Assembly (NCBI GenBank): GCA_004362315.1
Contig: SNWL01000007.1
Coordinates: 409,313-473,312, forward strand
DNA length: 64,000 nucleotides
Direction: 5' to 3'
Source: Mycobacterium sp. BK086
GTDB taxonomy: Bacteria; Actinomycetota; Actinomycetes; Mycobacteriales; Mycobacteriaceae
In this document: positions 292 through 8,523 of the stretch, piece by piece
Position numbering within the stretch: the stretch's first letter is position 1
Layout: every line of letters starts with the position of its first letter
The notes under the pieces: model-generated
Databases searched by the model: none
What the model saw: only the letters and a program-made list of their open reading frames with translations
Told to the model about the DNA's origin: nothing
Translations under genes and position numbers: made by a program

Positions 292-426
292 GTCTTATGG
301 ATACGACATGGCGACCATTCTGTCAATGGCTGTTGCAGGTTTTGCGGAGGACCTCCTGGTCAGCCCCAACCGCCTATCATCGCTCGCAAGCAGATCCAGT
401 GATCTCGCCCAGGGGAGGCGTCGTCG
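292..426. promoter_or_regulatory. Divergent control region between P450 and the adenylation cassette
   Basis: This 135-bp spacer carries the promoters of both divergent transcription units. It contains an 11-bp perfect inverted repeat, GGAGG-A-CCTCC, at 346-356. A second short palindrome, ATGG-CGA-CCAT, lies at 308-318. A strong Shine-Dalgarno stretch (GGGGAGG, about 411-417) precedes the ATG at 427. No canonical -35/-10 pair stands out. Operator function of the repeats is inference. Confidence 0.45.
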
Positions 427-2001
427 ATGACCGGCGTTGCATGGATGGACGGGCCGACAGCGAGTGTCGATCGCGATGGACCGGACCTGGACTTCACGCC
501 CGTCGACCTGGTGAACGACCCCGAGCGCGGCCTGCTGCCTCTCATCGCCGAGCGCCTGCGGCACGATCCCTCCGCCCTGGCGGTCGATGACGGCACGCGC
601 CGGTTGACGCGTGCGGATCTGCTCGGGGAGATCGCGGCTCTCGCTGCGGTGATCGCCGCATCGGTTCCGGCGGGCGCACCGGTCGGTGTGCGGCTGCCGG
701 ATTGTGCGAGCACCCCGGTCGCCTGGCTGGCGTGTCTGGCGGCGGGCTGTCCCGCGATCCTGCTCGATCCGGCGGATGCCCCGGAGCGGTTCGCCCGCAT
801 CGCGACGGCCAGCCGCCTGGCCGCAGTGATCTCAGACCAGCCCGCCGCGGGCCATGACGTCATCGCTCCGAACGGCCACCCGCCTGCGCCCTGGCAGCCG
901 AGGGCAATGGCGGTGGGTGCCCCGGCTTTCGTCGTGTGGACGTCCGGGAGCACCGGCGCGCCCAAGGGCATCGTCCAGAGCCAACGAAGCGTGACGTTCC
1001 GCAGCGGACTGCTGATCAACTCCGGCCACCTGTCGGCGGCGGATCGCTACCTGTCGCTGAATACCTCATCGAGCATGGGTGGGCTGCTCAACGCGATCGC
1101 TTCCTTCGTGTCCGGCGCCTGCCTGCACCGGGTGGATATCGCGGAGCAGGGTCTGACCGGTGTCCTCGATCGCATCGAGCAGTCCGAGATCACCGCGATG
1201 ATCGCCGTACCCGCGTTGTATCGTGCGCTGTCCCGCATCGACGGCGCCGCAAAGCAGTTGGCGTCCTTGCGCACGGTGTCGAGCAACGGCGAAGCTCTGC
1301 TGACTGCCGACCTCGAACTGTTGAGGGACGTCTTGCCCGACGGGTGTGCCATCCAAATGATCTACGGCGCAACGGAAACCCAGGCGGGGATGCGCTTCGT
1401 CCCGGCCGCGGAGGTACCGCAGGAGGCGCAGGTCCCCGCGGGCCGGCCGATCCCGGGCGTTGAATGGGTCATTGTCGGCGAGGATGGCACGCCGGCACCG
1501 GCCGGTCAGGTGGGCGAACTGTGGATTCGTAGCCGCTACACCGCGATTGGCGAATGGGAGGACGGGACCTGTGTCCCCGGTCGCCTTCATGCCGACGGAG
1601 TCGACGGTGCTCGCCGGTACGCAATGGGCGACCTTGTCCGGCTGCGGGAGGACGGCGTGTTCGTCGTCGTCGGGCGCATCGACCGGCAGATGAAACTCGA
1701 CGGCTACCGCGTCGAACCCGTCGAGGTCGAAGCAGTCCTGCGGGCCCAACCAGACGTGCTCGACGCGGCGGTCTTACCGATGAGCCACGGCGCCGTCACC
1801 CGTCTGATCGCCTTCGTGGCGGTCGGAGCCGCCTCGCCAGACGGTCTGACCGGGCGTCTGCGCAAGGCACTCGCCGCCGCGCTCCCGCCCGCGATGCGGC
1901 CACAGCGCATCCATGTGCTGAGCGAGCTTCCCCTGTTGCCGGGCAACAAGATCGACCCCGAGAAGCTGCGGCTCATCGACGCCGGAAGCCGACGTCGATG
2001 A
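427..2001 (+). CDS. Stand-alone adenylation enzyme (ANL superfamily, NRPS A-domain type)
   Basis: Predicted to activate a carboxylic or amino acid as an acyl-adenylate and load it onto a carrier protein, most simply the one encoded at 2981-3988. The 524 residues span a complete A domain. The phosphate loop is TSGSTGAPKG (about residues 172-181), A5 is YGATET (313-318), A7 is YAMGDLVRLREDG (from 398), A8 is GRIDRQMKLDGYRVEP, and the A10 catalytic Lys is K508 in LPGNKID. There is no condensation or carrier domain. The ATG at 427 follows a GGGGAGG Shine-Dalgarno stretch. The stop overlaps the next start as ATGA, so the three cassette genes are probably translationally coupled. Substrate specificity cannot be assigned by eye. 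A fatty acyl-CoA ligase is less likely because of the NRPS-like A7-A8 region and the adjacent carrier protein. Confidence 0.9.
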   Translation: MTGVAWMDGPTASVDRDGPDLDFTPVDLVNDPERGLLPLIAERLRHDPSALAVDDGTRRLTRADLLGEIAALAAVIAASVPAGAPVGVRLPDCASTPVAWLACLAAGCPAILLDPADAPERFARIATASRLAAVISDQPAAGHDVIAPNGHPPAPWQPRAMAVGAPAFVVWTSGSTGAPKGIVQSQRSVTFRSGLLINSGHLSAADRYLSLNTSSSMGGLLNAIASFVSGACLHRVDIAEQGLTGVLDRIEQSEITAMIAVPALYRALSRIDGAAKQLASLRTVSSNGEALLTADLELLRDVLPDGCAIQMIYGATETQAGMRFVPAAEVPQEAQVPAGRPIPGVEWVIVGEDGTPAPAGQVGELWIRSRYTAIGEWEDGTCVPGRLHADGVDGARRYAMGDLVRLREDGVFVVVGRIDRQMKLDGYRVEPVEVEAVLRAQPDVLDAAVLPMSHGAVTRLIAFVAVGAASPDGLTGRLRKALAAALPPAMRPQRIHVLSELPLLPGNKIDPEKLRLIDAGSRRR

Positions 2002-2984
2002 GCCTGCGCTACCGGGCCTTGCTGGAGCGCCGCTTGTCCGGCGAGCCGTCCCCGGCGACACCGGTGCTGTTCTGGAAGCACCACCCGGTCGCTGATCAGG
2101 ACGGCGCCGCGCTATGCCGCGCGACGCTCGACTTTCAGTCGGAGTTCGACTGCGACATCGTCAAGATCAGCCCTGCTGCGACATACCAGCTTCCCGACTA
2201 CGGCCTCGAGGACGACTGGCGCGGTGACCCGATCGGACGGCGCACGGTGACCAAGACGGTGATCCGCCATCCCGAGGATTGGCTACGGCTTGGCCGGGTG
2301 GATCCCCGTCGAGGATTCGTCGCGCGGTTCGGCGAATGCGTGCAGATGGTGCGTGACGCAACCGCGCCCGAGGTTCCCGTGATCATCACCGTCTTCGACC
2401 CGATGTTTCAGGCCCTCACCCTGGCAGGCCAGGAGGTGATACACGCCCACCTCAGTGCGGCACCGGACGCGGTGGATGAGGGGCTGGCCCGCATCACGGA
2501 GAATACGACGGAGCTCATCAGCCATCTGATCGGCCAAGGTGCAGAGGGGATCTTCCTGGCCAGTCAGCACGCCATTCGCAGCGTCTTCGCACGCGATGTG
2601 TTCGCCCGACACGGCATGCCGGGCGTGCGCGCGTGTCTGGATGCGATGGACGGGCTGATGCTCAACATGGTTCATGTGCACGGTGCGCAGGTGCACGACG
2701 ACCTGTTCGCGGAGCTCGCGGGGGCCACGATCCACTACGACATGTGGGCGGACAACCCAACACCCGAGCGCTTCCTGGATGCCGGCTGCGCGGTGGCAAC
2801 CGGGCCATCGCAAGCGCTCCTCGCCTCTGCGGCGCCGGATGACGACGTGCTCGCGGCGTGCGCGGAAGTGGTGAACCGCGGTGGGCGCACCATCTTGTCT
2901 CCCGGCTGCTCGACACCGCTCGCGGTCGGTGCCGAACGCCTGCGGCTGTTGACCGTTGCGGCTCGAATGCGGTGTGGCTCGTGA
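1998..2984 (+). CDS. URO-D-fold protein in an NRPS-like cassette; possible Zn-dependent methyl/alkyl transferase
   Basis: The 328-residue length and the overall pattern resemble the uroporphyrinogen decarboxylase/MtaA/CmuA TIM-barrel superfamily. Examples are a C-terminal barrel strand ending VHVHG, then IHYDMWADNP, and a closing SPGCSTPL. The N-terminal Arg-rich substrate block of true HemE enzymes (RQAGR-like) is absent; the equivalent region reads PVLFWKHHP. Zinc-dependent members use an H-x-C...C ligand set. Here the corresponding positions appear to be H226-V-H228 and C304, which would suit zinc binding rather than porphyrin decarboxylation. That assignment is by eye and is inference. 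The ATG overlaps the stop of the adenylation gene (ATGA), and the gene's own stop overlaps the GTG of the carrier-thioesterase gene, so it is part of the same operon. Its reaction is unknown. Confidence 0.75.
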   Translation: MSLRYRALLERRLSGEPSPATPVLFWKHHPVADQDGAALCRATLDFQSEFDCDIVKISPAATYQLPDYGLEDDWRGDPIGRRTVTKTVIRHPEDWLRLGRVDPRRGFVARFGECVQMVRDATAPEVPVIITVFDPMFQALTLAGQEVIHAHLSAAPDAVDEGLARITENTTELISHLIGQGAEGIFLASQHAIRSVFARDVFARHGMPGVRACLDAMDGLMLNMVHVHGAQVHDDLFAELAGATIHYDMWADNPTPERFLDAGCAVATGPSQALLASAAPDDDVLAACAEVVNRGGRTILSPGCSTPLAVGAERLRLLTVAARMRCGS

Positions 2985-3988
2985 CCGACGTCGCCACGAC
3001 GGTGTGCGACTTGATCGGCCACACCCTTGGCGTCGACGATGTCGCCGTCGACGAAGACTTCTTCGAGCTGGGCGGCACATCGCTGTTGGGGACTGCGTTG
3101 CTGGCACTCATCGAACGGCAGTTTGGGCAGCGGCTCAGACTGGCGGATCTCTACGAGGTCCCGACGGCTCGGGGACTGGCGCAGCGACTGATCCAGCCCC
3201 GCCCAGCGAGCGGCAGTGTCGCCGTGTTGCCACAGCCGCCGGAAACCGGTGACGTGCCACCGGTTTTCGTGGTCCACCAGCTCAGTTCCGACCTGATGCG
3301 ACAGATCGCATACCGCCGCCCCGTCGTCGGGTTGTCGTACGGAATGGCTACTGACCCGGCGGATGTCCAATGGCCGCTGCCGGTTGGTATCGAGGCGCTG
3401 GCGACGCATTATCTGGCGGAGTTGCGCCGAGTGCGCCCGGTGGGCCCGTATCACTTGGTGGGCTATTCCTTAGGGGGTGTGATCGCCTGGGAGATGGCGC
3501 GGCAATTGGGGGAGTCGGGTGACGACGTTGGCCTCCTGTGTCTGATCGATACGGCGCCACCGGGTTCGCGCCGTGCGCTGGGGCGGACGGCGACGATGCG
3601 ACGCGTGGTGTCGATACCACCGCATATCTTGGTACAGAGAGCTTTTCGCCGGATCGTGCGCAAACTCTCGAGGTTGTCTGTGGTGCAACGGGCGCGCTGG
3701 CGGCGATCCGATCAGGTGGCTCGGCTGCAGCTGATCGACCACCGCATGGATGCCTACCGAATGCAACCTGTTCCGGGGCGGCTGCTCCTCGTCGAGGCCA
3801 CCGAAGCCCTCCCGTGGTCCGATGTCCTGACCGAACAACCACTATCGTTGCCGCAGGCTTATGAGGCCGCGGGCCTTTCCTCCAACGGTGTTGTCGCCAT
3901 TCATCTTCCGGGTGATCACGGTTCCATCGTCTCCTCGCCGTTGGCCGGCCAGATCGCCGCCGCGATCGAGGAGACGATCGTCCGCTAA
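2981..3988 (+). CDS. Peptidyl carrier protein fused to thioesterase (PCP-TE)
   Basis: This 335-residue protein has two domains. Residues about 1-75 form a carrier protein with the phosphopantetheine site FFELGGTSLLG, attachment serine S34. Residues about 95-335 form an alpha/beta-hydrolase type I thioesterase with nucleophile elbow GYSLGG (S163) and a likely catalytic His in GDHGSIV (H313). It would tether the acyl group activated by the upstream enzyme and release it by hydrolysis, cyclisation or transfer. The GTG start at 2981 is chosen because it overlaps the preceding stop (GTGA) and begins the carrier helix directly. The end overlaps the opposing FAD-oxidase gene by 4 bp. There is no condensation domain, so the pathway is non-canonical. 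Confidence 0.9.
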   Translation: MTDVATTVCDLIGHTLGVDDVAVDEDFFELGGTSLLGTALLALIERQFGQRLRLADLYEVPTARGLAQRLIQPRPASGSVAVLPQPPETGDVPPVFVVHQLSSDLMRQIAYRRPVVGLSYGMATDPADVQWPLPVGIEALATHYLAELRRVRPVGPYHLVGYSLGGVIAWEMARQLGESGDDVGLLCLIDTAPPGSRRALGRTATMRRVVSIPPHILVQRAFRRIVRKLSRLSVVQRARWRRSDQVARLQLIDHRMDAYRMQPVPGRLLLVEATEALPWSDVLTEQPLSLPQAYEAAGLSSNGVVAIHLPGDHGSIVSSPLAGQIAAAIEETIVR

Positions 3989-5352
3989 ACCACCGCGCCC
4001 GGGTTCAGGATCCCGTCGGGGTCAAGCGCGGCCTTGATCCTGCGGTTGAGCTCCATGGCCTCTGGGCCCAACTGGCCCGCCAGCCAAGGCTTTTTCAGCC
4101 GACCGACGCCGTGCTCACCGGTGATCGTCCCACCCAGAGACACCGCCAGATCCATGATCTCGCCGAACGCCAGCTGAGCCCGCTCCGCCATCGCGGCATC
4201 GGCGGGGTCGAAGACGATCAGCGGGTGGGTGTTGCCGTCACCGGCGTGCGCGATCACCGAGATCGTCAGGTCGCGGTCGGCGGCGATCTTGGCCACCCCG
4301 CCGACCAGATCAGCCAGCGCGGGCAGTGGCACGCCGACGTCCTCGAGCAGCAGTGAGCCCTTGGCCTCCACCGCGGGGATGGCGAATCGCCGGGCCGCCA
4401 CGAACGCCTCACCCTCGTCGGGGTCGGACGTCGAAAAGCATTCGGTCGCACCTGCTTCGGTGAAGATCCGGGCCATGAATTCGGCGTCCTCGGCGCCCGT
4501 CGGCCCACGGTCGTCGGAGGCGGCCACCATCATCGCCGCCGCGTTGCGATCCAAGCCCATCCGCAGCTTGTCCTCGACGGCGTTGATCGCGACGGAGTCC
4601 ATGAACTCCAGCATCGAAGGCCGGATCTGACCGGTGATCTCGACGACAGCGCCCGCGGCCGCCTCCACCGAATCGAAGGTCGCCACCACCGTGCACGCCG
4701 AAGGCTGCGGCGGCAGCAGGCGCAGCGTCACCTCGGTGATCACGCCGAGGGTGCCCTCGCTGCCGACGAACAGCTTGGTCAGCGACAGTCCGGCCACGTC
4801 CTTCAGACGCGGCCCACCGAGGCGCACGGCGGTCCCGTCGGCCAGCACCACCTGCATACCGAGCACGTAATCGGTTGTCACGCCGTACTTTACGCAGCAC
4901 AGCCCGCCGGCATTGGTGGCGATGTTGCCGCCGATGCTGCAGATCTCGTACGACGACGGGTCGGGCGGGTACCACAGGCCGTGCTCGGCGACCGCCTTCT
5001 TCACCTCGGCGTTGAGCAGCCCCGGCTGTGCGACGGCGGTGCGGGTCACCGTGTCAACGGTGATGTCGCGCATCTTCTCCGTCGACAACACGATGCCGCC
5101 GTTGACGGCGGTCGCCCCGCCGGACAGACCCGTACCCGCCCCGCGCGGTACCACCGCGATCCGATTTTCGGTTGCCCACCGCAACACCGTCTGGACCTCT
5201 TCAGTGCGGGTGGGGCGCACCACCGCCAGCGGCGTGCCTGCGGCGGGATCGGCGGCGCGGTCCTGGCGGTAGGAGGCAACGATGTCGGGGTCGGTGACGA
5301 CGACCCCGTCGGGCAATTCAGCGGCCAGGCCGGCCACAGCGCTCACGGCCAT
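3985..5352 (-). CDS. FAD-linked oxidase, GlcD / D-lactate dehydrogenase type (Rv1257c-like)
   Basis: Flavoprotein of the VAO/PCMH family that oxidises a 2-hydroxy acid such as glycolate or D-lactate. The 455 residues match the length recalled for M. tuberculosis Rv1257c. The FAD-binding domain carries PRGAGTGLSGGATAVNGG (about 70-87), IGGNIATNAGG and FVGSEGTLGVITEV. The C-terminal FAD-oxidase_C domain ends with the GEHGVGRLKKPWL signature. The acceptor and exact substrate are not visible. It lies directly downstream of the tap-like gene on the same strand, with start and stop 9 bp apart. A TAGGAT hexamer formed partly by the tap stop codon sits 6 nt before its ATG, suggesting its own leaderless promoter. 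Confidence 0.9.
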   Translation of the reverse strand: MAVSAVAGLAAELPDGVVVTDPDIVASYRQDRAADPAAGTPLAVVRPTRTEEVQTVLRWATENRIAVVPRGAGTGLSGGATAVNGGIVLSTEKMRDITVDTVTRTAVAQPGLLNAEVKKAVAEHGLWYPPDPSSYEICSIGGNIATNAGGLCCVKYGVTTDYVLGMQVVLADGTAVRLGGPRLKDVAGLSLTKLFVGSEGTLGVITEVTLRLLPPQPSACTVVATFDSVEAAAGAVVEITGQIRPSMLEFMDSVAINAVEDKLRMGLDRNAAAMMVAASDDRGPTGAEDAEFMARIFTEAGATECFSTSDPDEGEAFVAARRFAIPAVEAKGSLLLEDVGVPLPALADLVGGVAKIAADRDLTISVIAHAGDGNTHPLIVFDPADAAMAERAQLAFGEIMDLAVSLGGTITGEHGVGRLKKPWLAGQLGPEAMELNRRIKAALDPDGILNPGAVV

Positions 5353-5358
5353 GGCGCC

Positions 5359-5364
5359 ATCCTA
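5359..5364 (-). promoter_or_regulatory. Leaderless-type -10 of the FAD-linked oxidase, overlapping the tap stop codon
   Basis: On the minus strand TAGGAT fits the mycobacterial TANNNT -10 consensus and lies exactly 6 nt before the ATG at 5352. Its first three bases are the TAG stop of the upstream efflux gene. The geometry predicts transcription starting on the A of the start codon. No -35 was assigned. Confidence 0.5.
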
Positions 5365-6603
5365 AGCGTGGGACTTGGCGGCATCGGGCTCGTCGTCGAG
5401 TTCGCGCAGCGCGGGCAGCCACGGGCAGAGCAGGCCGATCACCAGGATCGGCACCGCCAGCACCAGGAACGTCACCTTCAGGCCGAACGCGTCGACCAGC
5501 GGACCAGCCAGCGTGAAGCCGATCGGGCCTGCGGCATACGTCATCGACGTCATCACCCCCATCACGCGGCCACGCAGCTCCTCGGGGGTGCGGTTCTGCA
5601 TGATCGTGTTGTAGATCGGCCCGATCGGCCCATAGACCAGCCCGACGACCGCGGCGAAGGACAGGATCACCGGCAGCGGCGGCAGGAAACCGATGACGGC
5701 CACGGCGATGCCGAACGTCAGGACCGCGGTCAGCACCGTGCGACGCTTGCTGGAGAACTTCGACAGCACCGTCCAGCTCAACGCCCCGATCAGGCCGCCG
5801 ACCGACAGCGCCATCAGCACCCAACCGAGCTGGGCCGGCTCGTTGCGGTCGGTGAAGTACTTGGGGAACAGCACGCTTTCCATCGGCAGGTACAGCCCGG
5901 TGACGGCCAGGTCGATGAGCCCGAGTGTGCGCAGCACCCGGTTGCGCCAGACGAACTTCAACCCCTCGATGACGCCGGAAACCACACTCTCCGGGAGCTT
6001 TTCGCGCACCGGGCGCCCGGTGCCCTCGAGCCGCAGCACCGCCATCGTCAGGATTGCCAGCCCGAACAGGGCAGAGGTGACCCACATCGTGTTCACCCCG
6101 CCGAGCGTGGCGATCAGCAGACCACCGATACCGGGCCCGGTGATGTAAGCCAGGTTGAACACCGCCTCGTAGACGCTGTTGGTGTGGTCACGGGTCCAGC
6201 CCGCTTTGCCTGCCGCCTCGGGCAGCATCGATTGCCGCGCGGTCATGCCGGCCGGATCGAAGAAGGCGCCCAGAGCCGCCAGGCCGGCCAGCACCAGCGT
6301 GTTCAGCACATCGGTACCGAAGATGATGGCTAGTACCGGGATCGCCGCGACGGCGACGGCCGATAGCGCGTCGGAGAGCATCGCCACCCGGCGCCGGCCG
6401 ATGAAGTCGACGGCGGTACCGGCGATGAGCGTGGCGAACAGCAAGGGCAGCGTCGCCGCCCCCGCGACGATCGAGGCGTCGACCGCGTTTCCGGTGCGCT
6501 GCAGCACCAGCCATGGGAACGCGACCATGGAGATCCCGTTGGCGCCCGCGGCCAGAAAGGTCGAGGACAGGATCAGCAGCGCGGGGATGCGCGTGGTGGT
6601 CAC
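5362..6603 (-). CDS. tap: MFS multidrug efflux transporter, Tap family (Rv1258c-like)
   Basis: A 413-residue proton-coupled exporter of the inner membrane with about 12 hydrophobic segments. The N-terminus reads LILSSTFLAAGANGISM. The loop motif AVDFIGRRRVAMLSD is a variant of the MFS motif-A GxxxDRxGRR pattern, and ALGAFFDPAGMTARQSM follows. It corresponds in position and family to Tap, an efflux pump linked to tetracycline/aminoglycoside tolerance and controlled by WhiB7 in other mycobacteria. No WhiB7 leader peptide is evident because the start codon is only 22 nt from the divergent udgB start. The GTG at 6603 is chosen because a TAAGCT hexamer lies 6 nt upstream, a leaderless arrangement. 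Substrates are not predictable from sequence. Confidence 0.88.
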   Translation of the reverse strand: MTTTRIPALLILSSTFLAAGANGISMVAFPWLVLQRTGNAVDASIVAGAATLPLLFATLIAGTAVDFIGRRRVAMLSDALSAVAVAAIPVLAIIFGTDVLNTLVLAGLAALGAFFDPAGMTARQSMLPEAAGKAGWTRDHTNSVYEAVFNLAYITGPGIGGLLIATLGGVNTMWVTSALFGLAILTMAVLRLEGTGRPVREKLPESVVSGVIEGLKFVWRNRVLRTLGLIDLAVTGLYLPMESVLFPKYFTDRNEPAQLGWVLMALSVGGLIGALSWTVLSKFSSKRRTVLTAVLTFGIAVAVIGFLPPLPVILSFAAVVGLVYGPIGPIYNTIMQNRTPEELRGRVMGVMTSMTYAAGPIGFTLAGPLVDAFGLKVTFLVLAVPILVIGLLCPWLPALRELDDEPDAAKSHA

Positions 6604-6625
6604 CGGCAGAGCTTAATTTGGACTG
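6604..6625. promoter_or_regulatory. Overlapping divergent leaderless promoters of tap and udgB
   Basis: Only 22 nt separate the two GTG start codons. On the plus strand TAATTT (6614-6619) lies 6 nt before the udgB GTG. On the minus strand TAAGCT (6615-6610) lies 6 nt before the tap GTG. The two hexamers overlap by 2 bp, so both transcripts should begin at or next to their start codons and the two RNA polymerase footprints would compete. Confidence 0.6.
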
Positions 6626-7453
6626 GTGAACGTCCTTCCACACCCGCGCACCGGGGTGCTGTTCGAGTCGCCGGTGCTGCCCGGGACCGGCTGGCCGGGA
6701 GACCCCGCCGTCCCCGAAACCCCGGTGGCCACGACCGCAAGGAAGGTGGCCGGGCTGGCGGCGGCGGCAGGGGACCTGGCCGACCTCGACGCCATGGTCA
6801 GTGTGTGCCGGGCCTGCCCGAGGCTGGTCGCCTGGCGCGAGGAGGTGGCCGTCGCCAAACGGCGATCGTTCATCACCGAGCCGTACTGGGGCCGCCCGAT
6901 CACCGGCTGGGGCGCGGCGCGGCCGAAGATCCTGGTGCTAGGCCTTGCCCCGGCCGCGCACGGCGGCAACCGTACGGGCCGGGTGTTCACCGGTGACCGC
7001 TCGGGGGATCAGCTGTTCGCCGCGCTGTACCGCGCCGGGCTCGTCAACCAACCGACCAGTGTGGACGCCGCGGATGGCTTGGACACCAACGAGATTCGGG
7101 TCGCCGCTGCGGTGCGATGCGCCCCACCCGCCAACAAACCGGCGCCCGACGAGCGCTCGACGTGTGAGCCGTGGCTGACTGCTGAGTGGCAGATGATCGC
7201 GCCGTCCGTTCGGGTGATCGTCACCCTCGGTGCGTTCGGCTGGGAGGCGGCGCTGCGGCTGCTCGCCAACGACCTTCCCGGGCCGGGGAAGCCCAAATTC
7301 GGCCACGGGGTCGTTGTCGAACTGCCGTCGGGACGGCAACTGTTGGGCTGCTATCACCCCAGCCAGCAGAATATGTTCACCGGCCGGCTCACCCCGGCCA
7401 TGCTCGACGATGTCTTCACCGATGCGGCCAGGCGGGCCGGCCTGCGCGGCTAG
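6626..7453 (+). CDS. udgB: Family 5 uracil-DNA glycosylase UdgB (Rv1259-like)
   Basis: Removes uracil and other deaminated bases from DNA in base excision repair. The 275-residue protein carries the family 5 motif 1 [19 protein letters not shown] and the motif 3 HPSQQN. Iron-sulfur cysteines are visible as C-x2-C in VCRACPRL, with further Cys in AVRCAPP and ERSTCEP, consistent with the [4Fe-4S] cluster of this family. The GTG at 6626 is supported by a TAATTT -10 six bases upstream (leaderless transcript) and by the immediate opening [15 protein letters not shown]. It is divergent from tap. Synteny with Rv1258c-Rv1259 supports the assignment. Confidence 0.93.
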
Positions 7454-7491
7454 CGGGAAACAAGTGCGGCGGTCGTATCGTTGAGGCTGCT

Positions 7492-8523
7492 ATGCGGCTT
7501 TCTGTCCTCGACCTCGTTCCCGTGCGCACCGACCAGACCACTGGTGACGCGCTGGCGGCCACGGTGCGGCTGGCGCAGACCGCCGACCGGCTGGGGTTCA
7601 CCCGGTACTGGGTGGCCGAGCACCACAACATGCCTGCGGTCGCGGCCACCAGCCCGCCGGTGATCCTGGCCTACCTGGCCGCCCAGACCACGCAGCTGCG
7701 GCTGGGGTCGGGCGGGGTGATGCTGCCCAATCATGCGCCGCTGGCCGTTGCCGAACAGTTCGCACTGCTGGAGGCCGCCGCACCCGGGCGCATCGATCTG
7801 GGTATCGGCCGGGCGCCGGGCTCGGATCCGGTGACGTCGATCATGCTGCGGGGCACCCGCGACGATTCCGATATCGAGAACTTCCCGCAATACCTCGACG
7901 ACGTCGCGGCGTTGATGAGCGCGTACGGGGTCCGCATTCCGATCCGCAACCAGGACTACATCCTCAAGGCCACTCCCGCGGCGGTCGAGGAGCCGCGCCT
8001 GTGGCTGTTGGGCTCGTCGATGTATTCGGCGCATCTGGCCGCGGCCAAGGGTCTGCCGTACGTGTTCGCCCATCACTTCGCGGGGCAGGGCACCGTGGAA
8101 GCGCTGGCGACCTATCGCTCGGAGTTCCGGCCGAGTGACGTGGCGAGCGAGCCGGTGACGTTCATGACCGTCAACGCGGTGGTCGCACCGACGCGCGCTG
8201 AAGCCGAGGCGCTGCTGCTGCCGAACCTGCAGATGATGGCGCGGTTGCGCACCGGTCAGCCGCTGGGCCCGCTGGACCTCGTCGAGGACGCCGCGGCGCT
8301 GACGATGCACCCGCAGGCCGAGGCCATCATCGAGTCTGGCCGCGCCAAGGCGGTGATGGGTTCGCCTTCCGAGGCGGCTGAGCAGGTCCGGGCGGTGGCC
8401 GAGGAATTCGATGTCGACGAGGTGATGGTCAATCCGGTCGCGTCGGCGCATCGTGGCACCGATCCTCGTACTGCGCCGGCCCGCGAGGCCACGCTGGAGC
8501 TGCTCGCCAAAGAGCTGTTCTAG
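7492..8523 (+). CDS. Luciferase-like flavin monooxygenase (LLM class, MsnO8 type)
   Basis: A 343-residue TIM-barrel flavoenzyme, probably an FMNH2-dependent monooxygenase. The N-terminus MRLSVLDLVPVRTDQT and the motifs RYWVAEHHNMP, LRLGSGGVMLPNHAPL and RIDLGIGRAPGSDP are characteristic of the MsnO8-type LLM subgroup (alkanal monooxygenase-like). The C-terminal EVMVNPVASAHR is also typical. No dedicated flavin reductase is adjacent. The ATG at 7492 follows a TATCGT hexamer at 7476-7481, so the leader would be very short. In M. tuberculosis a different oxidoreductase (Rv1260) is recalled at this place. Substrate unknown. Confidence 0.88.
   Translation: MRLSVLDLVPVRTDQTTGDALAATVRLAQTADRLGFTRYWVAEHHNMPAVAATSPPVILAYLAAQTTQLRLGSGGVMLPNHAPLAVAEQFALLEAAAPGRIDLGIGRAPGSDPVTSIMLRGTRDDSDIENFPQYLDDVAALMSAYGVRIPIRNQDYILKATPAAVEEPRLWLLGSSMYSAHLAAAKGLPYVFAHHFAGQGTVEALATYRSEFRPSDVASEPVTFMTVNAVVAPTRAEAEALLLPNLQMMARLRTGQPLGPLDLVEDAAALTMHPQAEAIIESGRAKAVMGSPSEAAEQVRAVAEEFDVDEVMVNPVASAHRGTDPRTAPAREATLELLAKELF

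Follow-up and report, generated by a model that had tools for sequence, protein, structure and literature searches.

Known enzymes with the uroporphyrinogen decarboxylase (URO-D) fold serve heme synthesis and thiol or methyl transfer. Synthetases that combine adenylation (A), carrier (T) and thioesterase (TE) domains without a condensation (C) domain have also been described. PMC10316625 covers fungal types that form the quinones polyporic acid and atromentin, names the bacterial enzymes RalA and EchA, and gives Val at code position 1 as the mark of A domains for alpha-keto acids. Here, we compare these systems with a locus in Mycobacterium sp. BK086. The window, i.e., the whole stretch of 64,000 nucleotides that was analyzed (contig SNWL01000007.1, positions 409,313 to 473,312), carries at positions 427 to 3,988 three overlapping genes for a free-standing A enzyme, a URO-D-fold protein and a peptidyl carrier protein-thioesterase (PCP-TE).

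By its appearance, the cassette encodes a small pathway of its own and not a usual peptide module. It has neither mark of a canonical nonribosomal peptide synthetase (NRPS) module, i.e., a C domain and Asp235 in the A domain. An earlier, sequence-only reading had stated that the gene combination fits no NRPS module that it knew; this was too strong, as C-less A-T-TE synthetases are described in PMC10316625. The carrier and TE parts are of known kinds, and the URO-D-fold partner appears to be the new element, as judged by the papers searched. We tentatively propose a horizontally moving, self-contained three-gene pathway in which an acid would be activated, loaded onto the carrier, processed by the URO-D-fold protein and released by the TE.

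A three-gene unit at two chromosomal sites

The open reading frames (ORFs) of all three genes, their order, their strand, their domains and the overlaps noted by the earlier reading were confirmed; both overlaps are of 4 bases. The A gene (427..2001, plus strand, as are all cassette features) encodes 524 amino acids (P0005; ortholog P0003, 69%) with the Pfam domains AMP-binding (8.4e-50) and AMP-binding_C (1e-08), both over the cut-off. Its stop codon shares ATGA (1998-2001) with the start of the URO-D gene (1998..2984; 328 amino acids, P0001; Pfam URO-D 6.4e-15, over the cut-off). The stop codon of the latter shares GTGA (2981-2984) with the GTG start of the PCP-TE gene (2981..3988), in which PP-binding (5.1e-15) and Thioesterase (2.5e-17) are over the cut-off. 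The mechanical ORF of PCP-TE (P0006) opens at 2858 and has 376 amino acids. As the ortholog in the second copy of the cassette has 331 amino acids, GTG 2981 is most likely the true start, which gives about 335 amino acids. The phosphopantetheine-site Ser of the carrier domain (GGTSL) is encoded at 3080..3082 and the presumed nucleophile Ser of the TE (GYSLG) at 3467..3469. In agreement with the earlier reading, none of the three proteins gave a Pfam match to a C domain.

A scan of genome contigs with the URO-D protein returned one relative, 69% identical, at locus L005 of a genome of the same genus (G210). This locus holds all three genes in the same order and with the same kind of overlaps; identity to the window is 69% for both A and URO-D, and 48% for PCP-TE. 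In a simple NG86 count, dN/dS is ~0.25 for A, ~0.19 for URO-D and ~0.25 for PCP-TE, and judged from these ratios, the three genes are under purifying selection.

The flanks of the two copies differ. The cassette lies between a P450 and an FAD oxidase in the window, and beside sirA and hemW at L005 (names which we assigned from the sequences). Ten relatives of the window genome were compared by blastn. Homology on the P450 side stops at window positions 308-333 in nine of them and at 234 in the remaining one. On the oxidase side, it resumes at 3984-3998 in nine and is unmatched in the tenth (G009), in which the P450 side alone was matched in the stretch taken. The segment without counterpart thus spans approximately 309..3992. 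In eight of the ten, P450 and FAD oxidase flanks lie 40 to 827 bases apart (less than 300 in seven) with no cassette. The relative G004 has a different insert of ~5.4 kb between the same two genes (L111 ~1931-7387), with ORFs resembling by eye an epoxide hydrolase, an amidohydrolase and a TetR regulator. The content of the P450/FAD oxidase site seems to vary. At the other site, sirA adjoins hemW in 10 of 18 non-self HemW loci, and the other eight are without sirA in the short flank examined.

From these comparisons, the cassette is judged to be a self-contained unit inserted at two different chromosomal sites, and we infer that it moves horizontally. The P450 (1-291, minus strand, starting at 291 and divergent from the cassette) had been counted as a cassette member by the earlier reading. 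It belongs to the flank: because the flanks adjoin without the cassette in most relatives examined, it is a resident conserved neighbor. Outside the window genome, 11 relatives carry it with 79-93% identity (12 of 21 genomes if the window genome is counted). P450 and TetR were rejected as pathway members since eight of ten relatives have the P450 beside the FAD oxidase and no cassette.

Composition gives no clear sign of transfer. The GC content of the three genes is 0.65-0.69, and the 14 other window ORFs span 0.63-0.72. GC3 (0.76-0.81) is lowish but inside the range of these ORFs (0.68-0.91), with PCP-TE below 13 of the 14. A search for transposon-type edge repeats gave weak matches only, and a simple scan detected no promoters or terminators. 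A very stable hairpin (window 1955-2025, -40.1 kcal/mol, z -5.46), also detected as an inverted repeat (I6), spans the A stop and the URO-D start and may make translation of URO-D dependent on that of A. The same junction at L005 is without a hairpin (z -0.06).

The URO-D gene is rare. In draws from larger groups, it was matched in 2 of the 396 genomes drawn from the genus (2 of 297 in an overlapping draw) and in 1 of 397 genomes of the order. The draw from the phylum gave matches in 20 of 396 genomes, all of them, apart from the window genome, with E values of 1.8e-26 or weaker. With a broader profile, 46 of 394 genomes of the class matched, two of them below 1e-19; many of the remaining matches look HemE-like, as judged by the covered stretch and not one by one. 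A scan of viral contigs returned no viral or phage relatives, and one unannotated phage record that carries a relative with the His-x-His (HxH) motif was used in the tree only. Rarity within the genus would suit chance neighbors or a decayed remnant with no pathway behind it. We consider this hardly credible, as the unit is kept at two sites, is apparently under purifying selection and has a second association in another phylum.

The URO-D-fold protein and its predicted metal site

The protein has the URO-D/MetE-type barrel fold. Its identity as uroporphyrinogen decarboxylase (HemE) was rejected: RQAGR, FSDI (Asp86), the Tyr164 region and GHG (His339) are all lost (residue numbers of HemE). 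The genome has its own HemE as a separate gene, which shares 18.6% identity with the cassette protein and whose catalytic motifs are not kept in the latter.

The top NCBIfam matches are methylcobamide:coenzyme M (CoM) methyltransferases (1.2e-11; 44 bits, with the cut-off at 244), and the best sequence match in the PDB is MtaA (4ay7, E 0.023). Soluble S-methyltransferases of the UroD superfamily have a His-Cys-Cys zinc site according to PMC10418091. The cassette protein differs from the soluble CoM methyltransferases MtaA and MtbA as it has H-x-H in place of H-x-C. His226-Val-His228 (2673..2681) are the presumed metal ligands, with Cys304 (2907..2909) as the presumed third. Thus, the protein is predicted to keep a modified methyltransferase-type site, now His-His-Cys.

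These matches would fit an MtaA-like, corrinoid-dependent methyltransferase with a carrier-bound or free thiol as the methyl acceptor. We regard this as unlikely, since a search with PF02607 alone, in two genomes, revealed no dedicated corrinoid partner. Unlike the MtaA and MtbA systems, the cassette is without a corrinoid-protein gene. In G210, B12-binding_2 matched once, in a frame of 1294 amino acids, which is the size of MetH. The window genome has an extra PF02607 match, a 332-amino acid ORF behind a phosphatase-like ORF (by eye), on a contig other than that of the cassette. The replacement of His-Cys-Cys, the site given in PMC10418091, by His-His-Cys also speaks against this enzyme type.

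The proposed pathway and a probable plasmid counterpart

The code of the A enzyme was aligned by MAFFT with a Nostoc module as reference (code DFWNIGMVHK, which we take to specify threonine). The first six residues are MGLISN in the window and in L005. Met217 (1075..1077) takes the place of Asp235 (GrsA numbering), the residue that binds the amino group and is absent in all seven non-reference A domains aligned. The last four residues were read as I-A-G-K by motif; MAFFT gapped or misaligned the stretch 322-331. With this Asp missing, an ordinary alpha-amino acid is an improbable substrate; alpha-keto, hydroxy and simple carboxylic acids are likelier candidates. Met-Gly resembles Val-Gly of some keto-acid A domains. 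The earlier reading had suggested that the product may be a small modified amino or aryl acid; the pocket disfavors an ordinary alpha-amino acid. On a Nostoc plasmid, the first A domain of an NRPS (L044 7752-14902) is also without Asp235, and the ORF ahead of it (6836-7783) is heme-oxygenase-like by eye.

In the pathway that we propose, the free-standing enzyme would adenylate such an acid and pass it in trans onto the carrier domain of PCP-TE. The URO-D-fold protein, as a His-His-Cys metalloenzyme with the MtaA-type methyl/alkyl transferase kind of site, would then alter the carrier-bound acyl group; alternatively, its metal may activate a heteroatom (a thiol or similar) that is joined to the acyl group. 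Finally, the TE would release the product. The earlier reading had already proposed that the three genes function together, that an acid is activated and that a TE serves for release; our analysis supports these parts.

The earlier reading would have failed if the homologs were never co-located, and this check spoke for it: they are co-located in L005 and, less surely and in another gene order, on a plasmid. A plasmid search with the URO-D protein gave six records, among them pEMTOL02 of Emticicia oligotrophica (Bacteroidota); four of the other five were examined with their flanks, and the sixth (Aerococcus) was left out. On pEMTOL02, an 839-amino acid protein with AMP-binding over the Pfam cut-off is encoded 31 bp downstream of the URO-D gene. 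It is a probable A-PCP-TE fusion, with a carrier-like (GGNSL) and a TE-like (GNCSG) motif in its tail, and this tail gave a short blastp match to a Mesorhizobium carrier-TE tail (3.6e-05 in a set of six sequences). The Emticicia URO-D protein groups with those of the window and L005 (FastTree 0.971, UFBoot 97), and the three share the stretches FWKHHP..DQ.G and D..GRR. The pair thus resembles the cassette in its URO-D clade and in an A domain with a probable carrier and a TE-like tail. It differs in the fusion of A and in gene order. We regard it as an independent but looser support for the association of URO-D and carrier. The wider proposal that a corrinoid-free His-His-Cys URO-D-fold metalloenzyme does the central bond step on an acyl-carrier thioester, in a compact cassette that spread between phyla, is rather unlikely in this full form.

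Several observations weigh against the proposed pathway. In the Emticicia tail, PP-binding stays under the cut-off (E 0.014), Pfam gives no Thioesterase match, the TE-like motif has Cys, and the match to the window PCP-TE is not significant (0.29). The A domain clusters with those of Nostoc and not with that of the window (8 sequences), and its pocket is SGRHYA instead of MGLISN. Given the other A grouping, the other pocket and the weakly recognized tail, a common product of the two systems cannot be assumed. The structure model of the URO-D protein has low confidence (pLDDT 57.8). PMC13222342 describes URO-D-fold methyltransferases that are zinc-free, e.g., CdmB, so metal use by the cassette protein is uncertain. 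In the stretches of 16.7-17.0 kb around the HxH relatives in Gemmobacter, Polaromonas, Thermomicrobium and Microvirga, tblastn detected neither an A nor a carrier gene; hence, a carrier is not generally required by this protein. No URO-D gene was found near the rhizobial A-T-TE fusions, treated below, in the stretches examined.

These relatives bear on where the URO-D-fold enzyme acts. It may act on a free small molecule, making the substrate of A or altering the released product, while the carrier system would only activate and transfer the acyl group, e.g., by the TE to an alcohol or amine. We hold this for doubtful in itself, yet almost as likely as action on a carrier-bound group. Two of the carrier-less relatives stand beside transporters and amino-acid enzymes (Gemmobacter, Microvirga), which suggests free substrates, and in Emticicia the order differs, with URO-D before the fusion. 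The opposite is weakly suggested by both actinobacterial copies, in which URO-D is the middle gene and overlaps both A and PCP-TE, pointing to coupled synthesis. The genes around the Gemmobacter (L008 8004-14674) and Microvirga (L045 50-16337) relatives are for LysR, a tripartite tricarboxylate transporter and an octopine-dehydrogenase-family protein, and the Microvirga relative is also near a cysteine dioxygenase. They possibly form a catabolic branch of the URO-D subfamily.

If the URO-D-fold protein does act on the carrier-bound acid, as we propose, it would add tailoring chemistry to synthetase systems. The cassette has only three small genes and can therefore be rebuilt and assayed in vitro.

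Comparison with A-T-TE synthetases

In a plasmid search with the A domain, restricted to the best 60 of 2606 records as ordered by coverage and identity (others may score higher), the best matches are rhizobial A-T-TE fusions (35-36%, 241-247 bits); the other 56 of the 60 reach at most 137 bits. The Emticicia A domain, outside the 60, scored 208 bits in a small comparison against 281 and 275 bits for two Mesorhizobium A domains. The plasmids with these fusions come from Mesorhizobium japonicum, Mesorhizobium sp. AR07 and Bradyrhizobium elkanii. Like the cassette, the fusions have a C-less layout of A, carrier and TE and lack Asp235 (A and TE by Pfam, carrier by the motif GGDSL). They differ as A, T and TE are fused, the pocket is IARYRG, and the neighbors include aldo/keto reductase, FkbM methyltransferase, and BKACE or NAD/asparagine synthase genes. 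The aldo/keto reductase adjoins the fusions in two genera (L042 6820-12776; L077 10472-16433).

The cassette could also be a split C-less A-T-TE synthetase that forms quinones or furanones by dimerizing alpha-keto acids, the URO-D-fold protein serving as a tailoring enzyme. The quinone and furanone synthetases are marked by the activation and dimerization of arylpyruvates. The C-less layout and the missing Asp235 agree with this reading, as alpha-keto-acid enzymes have Val at that position according to PMC10316625. We nevertheless consider it improbable because the first code residue is Met217 and not this Val, and A is a separate protein.

Among the papers listed in searches of the open-licence literature, none describes a pathway with this gene set or a URO-D-fold protein with H-x-H...C tied to A, PCP or TE genes. 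In the present case, the association of such an enzyme with acid-activating and carrier parts is firm in two actinobacterial genomes and probable on a Bacteroidota plasmid. Compared with the quinone and furanone synthetases, including RalA and EchA, for which the likeness is one of published description and not of sequence comparison, the cassette shares the C-less set of A, carrier and TE and the lack of Asp at code position 1. It differs from them as A stands on its own chain and a URO-D-fold protein is included.

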